A stretch of 64,000 bases of DNA from Polychytrium aggregatum (Eukaryota > Chytridiomycota > Chytridiomycetes > Polychytriales). The stretch covers positions 186,001 through 250,000 of the forward strand of contig NW_026516225.1 in NCBI RefSeq assembly GCF_025602895.1, written 5' to 3'. How positions within the stretch are numbered: position 1 is the first letter of the stretch; every line of letters starts with the position of its first letter. The position numbers and the translations under genes are program-made. Below, one piece after another: positions 16,635-22,963 of this stretch. The notes beneath the pieces were generated by a model. It saw only the letters and a list, made by a program, of their open reading frames with translations, made no database searches and was not told the DNA's origin.

Positions 16635-17254
16635 GCATCAGCTCCACTTGCAATCTATTTCATCGTGGCTTGACCTTGGACGTCGCACTCGTGTCGGCCC
16701 GCCAGCTCCATCTTCCGTCCTCCGGCCTCTGCCTGAGACCTCCCCCTTTACTACACCCTCAGTCGTTCAATCATTCCATATCCCCTCCGCATTCAAGTCT
16801 TATTGTTAGAGAGGCTTCTTTTATTGGCCGCACCGACAATCGGCTCCTTGTCTTTGAATACAGCCATTCCTTAGAGCACCAGGTCCTTCCCCAGCTCGAG
16901 TCCATGACCACGTTCGACCGGCATTTGTCATGTCCGCCATCCTGACGTATGGTGGCCCTGGTCCAGACAGGCAGATTGCCGCTCAGGATGCGGGCAGGCA
17001 ATCCTGCGCCAGAGTCCTGGGGAACCAAGAACCGCGCCATTTTTTTTTTCTGCGCGGAATCTTGCTTCTCGAGATCCCCACTTCCCTGACAGCACCTCCC
17101 ATCTCACCAAGACCCCTGGTCCCGTCGTCGACTCAACTCGGTCTCGCTCAACGCCAAAGGTCTGCTCCAGTCTCGTTGAGTCCTGAAGCTCTCACTGATA
17201 TCACAGCGTCTTCGTTCTCACAAGATCGCCTCTGCTGTTGTCCAGCCGCCCGTC
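16635..17254. other. Spacer before Nup85
   Basis: Contains the 3' flank of the wall-protein gene and the promoter and leader of Nup85. There is a T tract at 17041-17050 and C/T-rich sequence towards 17200. No gene is recognised. Confidence 0.5.
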
Positions 17255-19420
17255 ATGAGCAACGATCTTCTCACCGAAATCCGCCAGGAGCTGTCGAGCT
17301 TCACCCCGCCGACCACTCACCTTGGCCTGATCCGCTCCCTCACCGAGCTTCCTGATGGTGTTTCGATCCTGTCGACCCTCCACCCCATCTCGAATACCGT
17401 GCTGCTGCACCAGGCATATACTCCCTCCGACCTGGAATCGCACAGAGGCATGGCCGACACAACCGTTGCCGTCCAGACGGCCCCGTCCATGTCTCCCTCT
17501 CGAGTCTCCTTCACCTCGAGCACAGGCAGCATCTTTCTTGCCCTGCAGTCTGCCTGGGCCGCGTCCGAGACGGCTGATCGAGATGTCGCTTCCACCGACT
17601 TTGCCAAAGACCCGAGTCCCCTGAGGCTCAACCACGACCACCTTGCCCGTTTCGTCCAGCTGTATCTGCAAGAAATCGCCGACTATCGAGACGCCCTCCT
17701 GACAATCGCCTCCGATGTCGAGTCCGAGGACGATCTCACCGACGAGCTGCGCGCCGAAATCGAGTCGGCCGAGATGATGCACTGGATCTGGCACCTGTGC
17801 CAAGTCATGTTCCTAAACGCCTCCCCCAACTCGCCTATCCGAGAGCGGCTCCTCTGGTGGGTCAACGTCAATGACCCGGCCCCAAGCCAGGCGCAGTATG
17901 ACCTGGTCCAGTCAACATCACAGCCACTTCATTCCCACTTTTGGCCCACCGTCCACACATGCATCTTGCGTGGCAAAACCCAGGAGGCATCCGATCTCCT
18001 GCAAGCCATCGATTCTGTTCGACAAAACGAATCGCTTGCGGCTATTCTCGACCGGCAGCTCAAGACCCTGGGCACCGCGTCCTGGGACCTGCAGTCTCGC
18101 AAGGACGCCAAGGCATGGGAGGAGTGGAAAATGACTTGCCAGTATCATAGCCGGTCCGAGGGCCCCGCTGACCCCGATGAGAGCTTGGAGCATCTCCGGC
18201 TCGCCTTTGGAATCCTCGCCGGCAATCCGGATGATATTCTGGCAGCATCCTCTTCGTGGCAGGAGGGCCTGGCCGCTCTCGTATTCTACAGCGATCCCAT
18301 GTGCAAGTCTCACGAGCTCCGGACCCACCTCGAGACTGTGCAAGGCGGCTATGAAATCGCAACGGACCCACTGGAATCCACTCTACTGGCGTTCTTTAGT
18401 CTTGATATCTTCAAGGGACTCCGACTCTGCACCGCGATCGATGTATGGCTGGTCAGTCATCTGACCGATCTCATCAGCAAATTTGCTGTGACGGCAATGG
18501 ATGCCGTATTCGATACCGACGGCAACATTCTCGGCGAGCTTGTGGAAGACTCGCTCACCTCTCGCCCAAAGATGAGCAAAGTCACCGAAACAGCGTGCAG
18601 CTTCCGGGAATGGCATCTGGTCCAGTACGGACAGGCCATATTCAAGCACCCGTCGCTTTGGAGCCTGGCCTTTGAATATTTCAACGCCGAATGCCCTGTC
18701 TTTGGTCAAAGTCTGATCTCGATACTCGTCACCCGCGTACCAATCGACACCGACCTAAAGGCCCGCAAACTGCTTGGGTTGTGCCGTAAGTTCAACCTAC
18801 CCGACGAAGAAAAGACCTTGTACCGAATCCTCGGCACCCGAGCGATCAAGTCAGACTCGCTCGGCGACGCTATCACGTATTTCATCAAAGCCAACGAGCC
18901 TGAGAAGATTGTCGTTCTTGCCGACAGGCTCTTTGAGGAGTTTGTCGCCAATGGCCAGCTCTCCCAGCGCCACGACTTTGTTGTCCACAACATCACCGCC
19001 GAGCAGCTCCACGCCACCAGCGATCGGCTTCTGTTCCTGGCCCACTACCAGCAGTTCACAGAGTATATCAAGCACGGTCAACTCAAGCTCGCTGGATCGC
19101 GACTGATTGAGCTTCTGACCTCGGGCATCGCTCCCAAGGAGGTGTGGGCAAAGCTTCTAGTTGATTCGCTGCCCCTGCTCGAATCCAAGGACACGATCGT
19201 CTTCGACCAGGCGTCCACCATCGAGCTCATGCGGTGTCTCGAGCACATCACCCTCAGCCACCGCCGCACTCAGTTCCTCAAATTTGGGAAGGGTACGAAT
19301 GAGTCCGGCTCAGCAACCGAGGCCAGTCAGGCTGCCAGCCAGGTCGAGAAGGCTCTCGAAGTGGTGCGATTCGGACTGGTGCGCAATCTCGCTCGAGCGA
19401 TGACCCTCCCGGGTCGCTGA
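17255..19420 (+). CDS. NUP85: Nucleoporin Nup85 (Y-complex)
   Basis: A single exon of 721 residues, near the usual Nup85 length of 650-750. The protein is an alpha-solenoid member of the Nup84/Nup107 Y-complex that forms the outer ring of the nuclear pore. Supporting blocks are HDHLARFVQLYLQEIADYRD, then HWIWHLCQVMFLN, LLWWVNVNDPAPS and FWPTVHTCILRGKTQEASDL, in the family's characteristic order. The second half has helical pairs such as DLKARKLLGLCRKFNLPDEE followed by DAITYFIKANEPEKIV. No membrane segments are present. The ATG at 17255 is the first in frame and the protein is complete. It is intron-free, unlike several of its neighbours. Confidence 0.9.
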   Translation: MSNDLLTEIRQELSSFTPPTTHLGLIRSLTELPDGVSILSTLHPISNTVLLHQAYTPSDLESHRGMADTTVAVQTAPSMSPSRVSFTSSTGSIFLALQSAWAASETADRDVASTDFAKDPSPLRLNHDHLARFVQLYLQEIADYRDALLTIASDVESEDDLTDELRAEIESAEMMHWIWHLCQVMFLNASPNSPIRERLLWWVNVNDPAPSQAQYDLVQSTSQPLHSHFWPTVHTCILRGKTQEASDLLQAIDSVRQNESLAAILDRQLKTLGTASWDLQSRKDAKAWEEWKMTCQYHSRSEGPADPDESLEHLRLAFGILAGNPDDILAASSSWQEGLAALVFYSDPMCKSHELRTHLETVQGGYEIATDPLESTLLAFFSLDIFKGLRLCTAIDVWLVSHLTDLISKFAVTAMDAVFDTDGNILGELVEDSLTSRPKMSKVTETACSFREWHLVQYGQAIFKHPSLWSLAFEYFNAECPVFGQSLISILVTRVPIDTDLKARKLLGLCRKFNLPDEEKTLYRILGTRAIKSDSLGDAITYFIKANEPEKIVVLADRLFEEFVANGQLSQRHDFVVHNITAEQLHATSDRLLFLAHYQQFTEYIKHGQLKLAGSRLIELLTSGIAPKEVWAKLLVDSLPLLESKDTIVFDQASTIELMRCLEHITLSHRRTQFLKFGKGTNESGSATEASQAASQVEKALEVVRFGLVRNLARAMTLPGR

Positions 19421-19801
19421 AGGATCGCCACACAGATTCAACCCAACTCAGTCGCGCACCACGGGGACCTGGTGCATTCTTAACACTCAACGATCGTGGT
19501 AGTTCTGGGAAATGGAGGGGTGATCCTCCACGAAAGCGCCGAGCCTGAGCCTTGCATGTGTTGGCATCTCCCGATGCTTCATGACCGATGTGACCCGGCT
19601 GGCTTGCATCGATCCGCACTGCGTCCTGCGAAGGGGTGGGACGATATCATCCGAGGGTGGCCTGGGCCAGCATCCGGGTGGCAACCATCGAGTGCACTAT
19701 TGCAACAATAAACCGATGCTCAGAACTGTGGTCATGGTCCCTGTTGGGGGCGGGTCTGGTGGCTCTGAGACGGATGCATGGGATATCAATGGGACGGATG
19801 A

Positions 19802-19857
19802 GCTGGGAATGGTTGTTGGGAATGGTAGCTGGGAATGGTTGCTGGGAATGGTTGCCG
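19802..19857 (+). repeat. 13-bp tandem repeat, about four copies
   Basis: Imperfect units of GCTGGGAATGGTT with small indels. It lies in non-coding sequence downstream of Nup85. Confidence 0.85.
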
Positions 19858-19901
19858 ATACAACACTTTCGCTGACTCACATCGGCGGGGTACATGACCC
19901 A

Positions 19902-19985
19902 CACTCATCAAACTCATCAAACTCATCACATCCATCACATCCATCACATCCATCACATCCATCACTCATCGCTCATCGCTCATCG
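19902..19985 (+). repeat. CATCACATC-type microsatellite cluster
   Basis: Successive short arrays: ACTCATCAA units, then 9-bp CATCACATC units, then GCTCATC units. All are variants of a CATCA core. Confidence 0.85.
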
Positions 19986-20678
19986 CAGCTCATGGGTGAT
20001 TCCACATCAATCGAGCAGTCCCGGGTGTGCGTTCCTGCAGCCGCCGATCGTTCAGTCCATGATGTGGGTGCTTCGATGACTGCCGCTCTTGCCTCGCCCG
20101 AGTGGAAAGACTTTGTCGACCCAGGTGCGTCGATTCTGCCTCCTCGCCGAACAACCTGGCGGGCGGATACGAGACATCGAGACCCGAGCGGTCTTGTCTC
20201 GGGGATCAACACCAATATCGGAGCTGCTGGGTCTTGAGGGATGTCCCGGTGTTGACAAGAGCACTCAGTGATCCGCTGCTCGGCACCTGGAAAGTGCACA
20301 TGGAAAGTGCATCTGAAACTCTCTATTCATCGATGTCCGTTGTGGCGCAGACTCCGAACATTGCAGGAGCCGGGCCGTCGAGGAGACATTGGTCTGCACC
20401 GTCTCTGTGACGTCTGCTGAGAGCCCAGAACGGCTTGGTGGCATTCATGACCCGAGCCCGACGTTGCATGCCGTGGCCAGGACCTTGGAGTGCTGCCAGT
20501 GGACTCGTCGTCAGGATCGACTCGACCGCCACCTGTATGTGTGGATGCCGGACTATGAGGGACGAGAGTGTTTGAGTTCGCCTGTGGCTCGGGACATTCA
20601 CTGGCACTCCCATCGATCGGACGCTGAACAATCATTCGGCGACCTGTCATTGGGTTCGACCCAGTGTATTACAGCCTA

Positions 20679-20767
20679 TCCAATAAAAATACGAGACCCC
20701 CGGGTTTTTGACCATCGAACGAATATTCAGTTACCCAATACCATCGCGTGCTGGCCAGGACCATTCT
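20679..20767 (+). repeat. End repeat immediately upstream of Fanzor remnant
   Basis: The second copy of the repeat at 2285-2370, in the same orientation, with the same 19-bp core at 20734-20752. It stops 3 bp before the ATG at 20771. This is the expected place for the left end and leader of a mobile element carrying the nuclease gene. Confidence 0.65.
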
Positions 20768-20770
20768 GTG

Positions 20771-21227
20771 ATGCGGTGCAACACTCTCATCAATAGCCTG
20801 AAAAACATTGCCTCTATATTCAGTGTGTCCAAGAGCACCATTCACCACTGACACTCCGAGACCAGTGCAGCGGCAAGGTAAGGGCCATGCATCCAGCCCT
20901 CGGAGGCAGCGGTTTGCTCGGTACTTTGAGCAATTCGAGCACCACCGTCGCCACCCACATCGCACTCATGGAAGTGTCAAGGTGGCCTCGACGAACGAGT
21001 TCAACACCTCGCAAGTGTGCTCCAAGTGCCTGGAGCCAGTTCGGTTGGAAGGACTCGATGCGCCCAGTGTTGCGAATTCCCACTCTGTCAGGAGCTGCAC
21101 GAATCCCAGCTGTCGGACAGTGTGGAATCGCGACGTCAATGCGGCGCGCAACATGATCACAGTGTGCAGGTCGATTGTGGAGATCGGAGAGCGACCGGCG
21201 GTCTTCACTCGGAGGCTGCCAAAGTGA
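20771..21227 (+). pseudogene. Fanzor (eukaryotic TnpB-like) nuclease remnant
   Basis: The frame ending at the TGA 21225-21227 encodes a TnpB/Fanzor C-terminus. NEFNTSQVCSKC gives the first zinc-ribbon pair (numbered from the codon at 20808, C71 and C74; 21018-21029). SCTNPSC gives the second (C97, C102). WNRDVNAARNM carries the RuvC-III aspartate (21132-21134), and the tail GERPAVFTR resembles Fanzor ends. The C-terminus therefore looks intact. There is no room for RuvC-I, RuvC-II or the RNA-binding part. Upstream, an ATG at 20771 in another frame encodes about 26 codons containing NIASIFSVSKSTIHH, a helix-turn-helix-like stretch, then TGA. I read this as an internally deleted, frameshifted copy, not a working RNA-guided nuclease. 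A hidden intron (GTAAG at 20876) cannot be excluded. Confidence 0.8.
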
Positions 21228-21356
21228 TTTGATTGTATTACTTATGGCTTTGCTTGACGCGAGCACACCACATACTACATGTTCATGGAAACGGCTGTGT
21301 TGTCCCGTTGTTTTCTGAATATAGTGTATTGCCCCTGCATTGTCTTCAGGGTCGAC

Positions 21357-22963
21357 TCAGCTTCTACTCTGGGGTTTTGAGGGTTTGCCGCGCGACCGAC
21401 TCTCGGCACCGTTTGCTCTGCTCTCTGACGAGAACGTCGACTGGGCATACGACGGCGTGCTCCGAACTTGGCGATAGTGACTCGTTGCCATCGAGACCAG
21501 CGACGGTGGCTCTCGCGCGGTATACGTTCGAGTTCCTCTGTCTGCCGCTTGTGACGGATACTTCGTCGGCTGCGGCGACTGTCTCGATGGACGGACGGAT
21601 CTGGCTGGTCCCGCTCGTGGCCGATCCGACGCATCAGTCCTATTCGGTGGCAGTCGGGAGTGTGGCTTGTGGCTGTGCTTCTCTCTTGATGCCTGTCCCT
21701 GCGACGGTATCGCTTTCGGCAATCGAGCGGCGGTATCCTGTGGAATCTCAGTGTGATCCGTCGTGATTTCAGAAACAATGCGCACCAGCTGCTGCTCAAA
21801 GTCTTGCACTTCTTGATGAATTCTGGAGCTTGCTGACAGGCGTCGCTTCTGTTTCGCTGCCTCCCTCCGCGTTTCTGGAGCAAGCCTGCTTCTCACGGCT
21901 TCTTCGATTGAATGCTTCACCTGGCTTCGGATCTCACCGCGCAGCGACTGGATCATCGACTCGAGCTCCTCCTTGAATTGAGATTGAGCCAGGATTCCAG
22001 TATCCACACTGTGATGCACTGGAGGCTGATCAACAGTCACGACCCTTTCTTGGGATTCTGTTCCTGTTGTGACTAGGACTTTGGCTCCGTCGTCGACCGA
22101 AGCTTCCGGCTTCCTGTCTAGCTGTGGCTTAATGCACAAACTACGAGGCGACGAATGTCCAAGCTCTTGACCTATTTGATGGCACAGTTCCTGGATTTCC
22201 TTGCGAATATTGGATAGAGATCTGTCGATGTTGTTGAGTTTCACATCCGAGGCTGTCCGTCAAAATCGGTGATATGGTCACGGGTCTTGGCTTAATGGAT
22301 CCAAAACGGACTGCACCTCATCACCCTTTGCGACATCCCATCACCATGATATCCAATAGGGCTTAACAATCGATGAGGCGCACTCCACATCACCGGGCTT
22401 ACCACGAAATATATCCTCGCAGTCGTCGCTGAGAATCGGGTTGGCGCTCTGCGATGTGCATGGCAAGTGGGCATTGCTGGCTGGTGGCAATCCGTCACCG
22501 CCCCAAACTAAGAGTGTGGCCATCGTTAATATAGCATTCTAAAACTCAGGAATATCTTTCTATTCCCGTCGCTCGATCGGGCTGTGATCATACCATTGTC
22601 GGAAGGGCCGCTGCTATTCCGTGGAGCCGTTATTGCAGATTTGCTCGAGACGCGATCTGGCTGTGCCAGTTTGCCCTTGACGACCACACTCTCAAGGAAG
22701 CTGCTGTGCTCTTCGAGAGAAAAGCGGACGGCTATCGGACGACGGATATCGTGTTTTGGCCACGAGCTCTGAATCTCTCGGAGAAGCTCGCGCTCTTCGT
22801 CGTAGTTGACCGACGATGGCAGCTCGCTGAGGGAAATCGTCTGTGAAGCCTCGGCTGCGACTGCAAGCGGATGGCTTGCGGGCTGAGGCAGCTTGGATAT
22901 CACCAGATTCCGAGTCCACAACGACGATGCAGACGAGCATGTGTCGCCGATGTCATGATCCAT
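21357..22963 (-). CDS. Unnamed coiled-coil protein, about three exons
   Basis: I do not recognise the family. Exon 1 starts with ATG at 22963 and encodes a region with SVNYDEERELLREIQSSWPK; its donor is probably the GTATGA near 22595. A second exon near 22404-22523 encodes ANPILSDDCEDIF before a GTAAGC donor. The last exon begins after an AG near 22253 with SDVKLNNIDRSLSNIRKEIQ, followed by heptad-rich helices (QFKEELESMIQSLRGEIRSQ) and a long basic Ser/Pro/Arg tail. The helices suggest a coiled coil and the tail disorder. It is head-to-head with ORC3 and tail-to-tail with the Fanzor remnant, its stop lying 130 bp from the remnant's stop. The splice model is tentative. Confidence 0.5.

Follow-up and report, generated by a model that had tools for sequence, protein, structure and literature searches.

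A ghost copy of a Tc1/mariner-Fanzor1 transposon in Polychytrium aggregatum and a one-sided T beside the left ends of its family

Introduction

The window analyzed here, a stretch of 64,000 nucleotides from the chytrid Polychytrium aggregatum, contains a short open frame that ends like an RNA-guided nuclease of the Fanzor type. Such a fragment raises the question of whether it is merely the last piece of a broken gene or belongs to a transposon that was moved after the gene had been lost and, if so, what the nuclease does for the transposon, a question that Saito et al. discuss as unresolved in the accessible text of PMC10432273. The literature used for comparison comprised the accessible parts of PMC10432273, PMC3627910, PMC10711439 and PMC11423790. 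In a full-text literature search, for which most subscription papers were outside reach, no report was found of the element, of the one-sided T or of the transposase with two Fanzors that are described below.

Identity of the window fragment

An earlier note, made from the letters of this DNA alone, read the fragment as the C-terminus of a decayed Fanzor. The motifs that it named, CSKC (21018-21029), CTNPSC (21096-21113) and WNRDVNAARNM (21123-21155), were all found in that order in the open frame 20802-21227, and the codon given for the catalytic Asp, 21132-21134, is indeed a GAC in RuvC-III. The frame matches Pfam PF07282 with an E value of 1.3e-10 and 41.7 bits (cut-off of 26.3), while NCBIfam guided_TnpB matches at 4.1e-7 and 29.6 bits, the model's own cut-off being 100. 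No unrelated family of Pfam or NCBIfam, which the note had proposed to look for, scored above its cut-off; the only other Pfam match of the frame was IBR (E=0.92, below its cut-off). Positions 20870-21328 are 93-95% identical in DNA to the 3' ends of other copies in the genome, far above chance. At the level of sequence, the fragment is confirmed as what it was predicted to be, a Fanzor remnant.

Two details of that reading changed. The Fanzor part begins near 20870 instead of 20771, and the DNA at 20672-20869 forms the left part of the transposon to which it belongs. Both RuvC-I and RuvC-II had been taken as lost; RuvC-I, with the Asp of DPG, and the N-terminal part are absent, but the RuvC-II-type Glu is present (NEFNTSQVCSKC, codon GAG at 20997-20999). 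It lies six residues before the first CxxC, which is where the catalytic Glu of Fanzors sits according to the accessible text of Yoon et al. (PMC10711439). What remains is the last 119 codons of about 790, without the RuvC-I Asp and the REC and WED domains; as the note had expected, the window copy should make no working nuclease.

Structure of the window element

BLAST comparison of 19500-22500 with the first loci yielded two blocks, 20669-20869 resembling left ends and 20870-21328 resembling right ends. The earlier note had suggested finding the element ends from aligned copies, and both were located in this way: the element extends over 655 bp (20672-21326), in which 198 bp of left part are joined to the last 457 bp, and TA is found on both sides. 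We read this TA as a target-site duplication because of both flanks and because of precedent. The identity of the window copy to the left ends of two full-length copies, L049 and L050, is about 81-85%. The features are as follows.

17180-19420, + strand: open frame for the nucleoporin Nup85, the neighboring host gene
20668-20671, + strand: A-T-T-A before the element; 20670-20671 is TA, the presumed target-site duplication on the left, and T at 20669 is the conserved base of the TAM-like motif
20672-20700, + strand: left terminal repeat, diverged from the CAGGCAATCCAATAAAAAACGGGACA of the family
20672-20869, + strand: left part; a stretch at 20765-20854 preserves a piece of the transposase reading frame (30 aa, 63% identity)
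20847-20865, + strand: 19-bp filler common to the window copy and other ghosts
20870-21227, + strand: C-terminal 119 codons of Fanzor1 and stop (ends 21227), with Glu 20997-20999, the CSKC/CTNPSC zinc ribbon and Asp 21132-21134
21228-21326, + strand: 3' non-coding region and right end, the location of the guide RNA in known Fanzors (presumed role)
21327-21328, + strand: TA, right copy
21329-21343, + strand: putative guide stretch if this copy yields a guide RNA, by analogy with the accessible accounts in PMC10432273 and PMC10711439

The element lies ~1.25 kb downstream of the Nup85 gene. With both flanks of the window copy as the query, no insertion-free allele was seen among the 40 scored of 1347 candidates. 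The window also contains another mariner left end at 2275-2373, which is more diverged (77%), and a tRNA-Trp gene at 1181-1252; a tRNA was the only Rfam match in the window.

Full-length relatives

The relatives that the earlier note had predicted are numerous in the 64.7-Mb genome. Searching with the window fragment gave 1235 candidates, and 81 of the 150 scored matches are in frames of at least 790 aa and 24 in frames of less than 300 aa; the Pfam zinc-ribbon model gave 663 candidates, and all 150 scored exceed its cut-off, the copy counts from both searches being lower bounds that include duplicated contigs. Full-length copies measure 3.6-3.75 kb and carry a DDE transposase and a Fanzor of about 790 aa. 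For instance, L049 (~3.6 kb) and L050 (~3.75 kb) consist of left end, transposase, Fanzor, ~100 nt of 3' non-coding DNA and right end, in this order. Their Fanzor frame has 809 codons, about 790 from its Met; the transposase is 310 aa from the first Met in L050, and its frame is broken in L049. In the full-length element, the transposase matches DDE_3 (E=4.4e-21) and IS630 (E=7.1e-33) and the Fanzor matches PF07282 (6.5e-9), which is above its cut-off in L050 (A type) and L141 (C type, see below) as it is in the window. The DDE transposase, the inverted repeats (AAAAAACGGGAC and GTCCCGTTTTTT in the two ends) and the TA on both sides place the element among the Tc1/mariner transposons.

Four full Fanzors, two of A type and two of C type, were aligned. 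DPG (in GIDPGVG), the rearranged Glu and the RuvC-III Asp are invariant in all four, so that full-length paralogues with DED residues, for which the earlier note had suggested a search, do exist. The A-type pair is 94% identical, and C type is 42% identical to A type. With the profile of the four proteins, the best match in PDB was the Spizellomyces Fanzor (E=0.0027, marginal), followed by Guillardia Fanzor1 (0.051). The Spizellomyces match begins ahead of RuvC-I and reaches the C-terminus; as judged by eye, the RuvC-I DP, the RuvC-III Asp and the Glu that precedes the zinc ribbon all line up. Single full-length proteins had no Fanzor match in PDB at E up to 1, and they are therefore distant members. 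Their predicted assignment to Fanzor1 and not to Fanzor2 follows from the mariner-type (non-IS607) transposase in cis and from the two best PDB matches, both weak, which are Fanzor1 proteins. In a search for viral relatives, none of 41 pattern matches was confirmed.

Left ends with at most two mismatches number 437 genome-wide, and the reversed control gave 0. Compared pairwise, 30 distinct right ends of 400 bp are 97% identical in the median, and the median of the window right end to the 29 others is 94.7% (range of 84-96%, in which the minimum belongs to the 312-bp ghost L058, whose 400 bp run past the shared part). Within the two Fanzor types, dN/dS is 0.29 and 0.33 (one pair each). The family has been recently active and under protein-level constraint. 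The earlier reading of a Fanzor remnant that lacks RuvC-I and has relatives in the genome is thus supported. It did not recognize that the fragment forms half of a compact, non-autonomous transposon in which both ends are present, nor that the many full-length relatives are coupled to a transposase of mariner type.

Ghost classes

The copies that have no usable Fanzor, or ghosts, fall into classes of about 660 bp (the window type), 1114, 383-385, 312 and 283 bp. Of the 63 ends that could be paired, 50 are 3389-3790 bp apart, one is at 3177 bp, three at 1114 bp, three at 383-385 bp, five at 312 bp and one at 283 bp; pairing used the listed places, which were 100 of 173 left and 122 of 210 right ends, and 63 of 99 usable left ends found a partner. 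The 312-bp ghost is composed of 100 bp of left and 218 bp of right sequence. A search with L058 gave 1152 candidates, and with 40 scored, 41 matches were listed. Of these, 40 cover nearly the whole ghost at 93-100% identity; they include L058 itself and one further copy with the identical sequence. This ghost is found at 40 or more places in the genome.

The window-type, 385-bp and 283-bp ghosts have the 19-bp filler (GCTGGCACTCCGAGACCAG) in common, with two substitutions in the window copy; it is lacking in L049, L050, L141 and L142, as well as in those ghosts of 312 and 1114 bp that were read. These sequence patterns suggest that the ghosts sharing the filler may have descended by successive deletion. 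The junction of the window copy is also found in copies on C223, C101, C372 and C82; those on C372 and C82 have the same flanks and were counted as one insertion, which leaves three distinct places for the four copies. The left tip is missing in the C223 and C372/C82 sisters and the right tip in the C223 and C101 sisters. Apart from these two window-type sisters without right tips, all five A-type ghost classes that were read (window, 1114, 384, 312 and 283 bp) retain the 3' region and the right end. Retention of the right end was considered as proof of a guide RNA and set aside as ambiguous, the left ends being kept as well, by at least 100 bp.

With both ends, a lost Fanzor gene and several copies, the window copy is a Fanzor ghost locus, and such ghosts must be mobilized in trans. 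It is an old, internally deleted, non-autonomous copy of a Tc1/mariner-Fanzor1 element, of which the Fanzor fragment is the right half.

One-sided T at the left flank

Genome-wide counts were made on exact ends, which omits older copies, and they include duplicated contigs. By these counts, T precedes the left TA in 173 of 179 left ends and another base does so in 6, while A follows the right TA in 40 of 210 right ends, which is the background level (Fisher P about 1e-61 for left T versus right A). In a further count, left flanks that agreed over 30 bases were taken as one, by which 9 duplicates were removed. In the main left-end type (TACAGGCA), T then precedes TA in 57 of 58 distinct flanks, and the base before this T is A or T in 50. 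The minor groups, which mix element types, have T in 6/7 (GGCG), 4/9 (GCCA), 3/5 (GTCA) and 0/1 (GTTG); three singleton groups all have T, and the sum is 73/83. Among distinct right flanks, A follows TA in 6 of 27. T is also found before the TA of the window copy and of the ghosts L064, L203 and L204, and at least two 312-bp ghosts have another base, A on C358 and C on C101.

A symmetrical target preference would give A after the right TA, and since A is only at the background level there, the preference is not symmetrical. A new insertion gains new flanks, and T is therefore not inherited with the element; it must result either from orientation-specific insertion or from later filtering of insertions. 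Two simpler accounts were rejected. That T is the first base of the element is refuted by the six exact ends in which A, C or G precedes TA and also by C-type copies with the same left terminus, which show A, G and C; at the right end there is only TA. That absence of T tracks the left subtype TTACCCAAAAC was not upheld, as A-type copies with this subtype whose left terminus could be read have T in 10/10 (L067, L078, L116, L120, L137, L186, L187, L196, L199 and L200; the unclear L198 and the duplicates L188 and L201 were omitted).

A second Fanzor on nearly the same transposase

The C-type search returned 1374 candidates, of which 76 were scored, with 77 matches, 53 of them in frames of at least 800 aa. 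In L141 and L142, the left end and transposase module are 95-97% identical in DNA to type A where compared, and 297 and 298 of the 310 aa of the transposase are identical to those of L050, whereas the Fanzor and the right end both differ from type A.

C-type left flanks, assigned by distance to a C-type Fanzor match, have T in only 5/8 (L085, L084, L144, L092 and L185, against A in L056, G in L083 and C in L076). This count leaves out L082, whose Fanzor is only 62% similar and which has C before TA, and L190/L192/L193, which share one flank inside another Fanzor gene with a mutated TA. The T share of C type is below that of type A (P about 0.004), and three of the five T-bearing copies have the A-like left subtype ACCCAATG. 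In 19 of 20 stretches at the expected distance from C-type copies, no mariner left module was found. The weaker T bias fits the idea that the motif follows the Fanzor, for which eight copies are a small number. The right end differs along with the second Fanzor, and the weaker bias thus does not isolate the Fanzor as the cause.

Copies with a C'-type Fanzor (L165-L182) were noticed in passing. In 17 of 18 of their right ends, some of them duplicates and with L171 as the exception, the sequence after TA is the same (AGTATCTTGCACTG...) over more than 110 bp; it had 150 candidate places, of which 40 were scored. On C391 (L205), it follows a C' 3' region, and no C-type Fanzor of that contig is among the matches listed. 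A shared flank would be odd as a fixed "guide" and may represent either capture of another repeat or homing to one target. A C'-type ghost of ~210 bp, composed of left end and C' 3' region, is found at L050:4405-4620; it is bordered by an 11-bp direct repeat (TATTCTTCGCA) and not by TA, and lies ~10 bp from the type A right end, that is, within the presumed guide stretch of that element. In L184 and L189, a left end (TTACAGCCAATC) is followed at once by a terminus like the C right end (TACAGTCAAACCAGAAAG), which looks tandem or recombined.

Guide RNA and proposed mechanism

In the accessible parts of PMC10432273 and PMC10711439, the guide RNA of known Fanzors comes from the right end, with the next ~14-15 nt as the guide, and the target duplication of Fanzor1 forms part of the guide-RNA scaffold. 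In the case of SpuFz1, a conserved CA precedes the left repeat, and with TA added it equals the measured target-adjacent motif (TAM), CATA (PMC10432273, accessible text). By analogy, the one-sided motif of this family, TTA, resembles a TAM.

Seven right ends folded as single sequences gave z scores of -0.36 to -2.90, the lowest for the 129 nt of the window copy. RNAalifold predicts a stem closing at the right TA for 17 distinct C-type right ends (3 of 20 rows were dropped as duplicates); in this alignment, only 1 of 21 predicted pairs has a double change as a sign of covariation. Rfam searches of 12 loci gave no credible family and only two chance-level rows (E of 0.7 and 0.93, both in L141). 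The structural signal is weak; the predicted folds are compatible with a guide-RNA scaffold and do not demonstrate one.

We propose that the transposase of full-length copies would move full-length elements and ghosts into TA in either orientation. The right end may then be transcribed into a guide RNA that ends in the flanking DNA just past the right TA. Loaded with this guide, the Fanzor would cut the insertion-free site, for instance on the homologous chromosome, by reading TTA and then the match to the guide; the insertion-free allele would have TAM and target side by side, which the occupied allele does not. Repair of the break would copy the element into the cut site, and insertions preceded by T would persist and spread, which would yield the one-sided T. 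By the logic of SpuFz1, TTA is the putative TAM of type A, and the window copy may have provided a guide RNA in trans or may be doing so still. Because a footprint usually stays behind when a mariner element excises, the natural target would be the uninserted homologue and not the excised donor site.

Taken as a whole, it is probable that the window copy is a ghost of a Tc1/mariner-Fanzor1 element that the transposase inserts at TA and whose insertions at TTA are retained or spread by RNA-guided cutting, where we infer the steps from the guide RNA on. A more far-reaching version is tentative, and we would place it somewhat below an even chance: a Fanzor gene drive, in which the transposase scatters copies over TA sites and cutting fixes only those beside the motif (A/T-TTA in A type), ghosts are guide-RNA genes that use the nuclease in trans, and a swap of the Fanzor on one transposase changes the motif.

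Alternative explanations

The target of TA-specific mariner enzymes is a palindromic dinucleotide, and to our knowledge no one-sided preference is known for them. The T bias could nevertheless come from the transposase complex itself, if unlike ends give it a fixed orientation to T-TA, with the Fanzor uninvolved. The left and A-type right termini do differ (CAG versus CAC after TA), and the C-type elements, with their weaker bias, have a right end closer to the left end. Ghosts without any protein mostly have T too, the 312-bp ghosts being 10 among 100 listed T places and 1 among 6 non-T places; as both proteins act in trans, this fits either reading. Besides the palindromic target, two observations speak against this explanation: where a different Fanzor goes with the same left terminus and nearly the same transposase, T is found in just those five of eight flanks, and CA plus TA equals the measured TAM in S. 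punctatus (PMC10432273, accessible text). We consider it unlikely, with enough in its favor to be taken seriously.

It is far less probable that the window copy is a plain dead relic, an ordinary Fanzor pseudogene fragment that has been immobile since its deletion. RuvC-I and most of the protein are gone, and by its median identity of 94.7% to 29 right ends the copy is not young, but the copy still has its two ends and the TA, and its deletion junction recurs elsewhere between different flanks, from which it follows that the element was moved or copied in its already shortened form. We give almost no credence to the fragment as a host exon or domesticated zinc-ribbon gene. Its frame is open over 141 codons; however, the segment coincides with a repeat family, the frame takes in the left part of the transposon, and Nup85 ends 1.25 kb upstream. 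Our preferred reading remains the ghost of a mobile Tc1/mariner-Fanzor1 element.

Comparison with known systems

Fanzor ghost loci are already known as a kind from the Spu-1 ghosts of S. punctatus. As described in the accessible parts of PMC10432273 and PMC3627910, Spu-1 and ghost Spu-1 (with SpuFz1) share with the present family a Fanzor1 between inverted repeats, TA duplications, many ghosts without the Fanzor, conserved bases before the left repeat and a right-end guide RNA, the last being presumed here. No transposase was found within the repeats of Spu-1 according to these parts, whereas here it lies inside the same ends; the motif is CA in Spu-1 and T (mostly A/T-T) here; and the A-type ghosts read, unlike those of Spu-1, are internally deleted and retain no less than about 70 nt from the end of the Fanzor coding sequence. 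The copy number is also higher here than in S. punctatus, for which the accessible text reports 42 Fanzor loci, 19 of them full-length, and 134 ghosts. PGv-1 and PUl-1 (Bao and Jurka, 2013; PMC3627910) likewise carry both a mariner transposase and a Fanzor1 within a single element and have TA duplications, but PGv-1 is reported as single-copy, and a flank motif, a ghost series or module exchange is not described for the two in the accessible part of that paper.

In the P. aggregatum genome, a high-copy element unites a transposase and a Fanzor, nearly the same transposase is combined with two types of Fanzor, and ghosts exist in several classes. Whether Fanzor acts on insertion sites thereby becomes a question for counting and assay, and the predicted motif (TTA) and guide position are directly testable.

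TnpB elements of IS200/IS605 and IS607 share the zinc ribbon and RuvC-III end, as well as a right-end guide RNA and left TAM that are presumed here. They differ in their transposases, and typical TnpB has the canonical Glu and D-hydrophobic-G (PMC10711439, accessible text). A Fanzor2/IS607-like family also occurs in the genome (L001-L008, e.g., L003:280-1710). Two of its copies are inverted and ~5 kb apart on C124, and in L003 a frame of 477 aa fuses the N-terminal part (HTH) of an IS607 TnpA to a TnpB-like protein.
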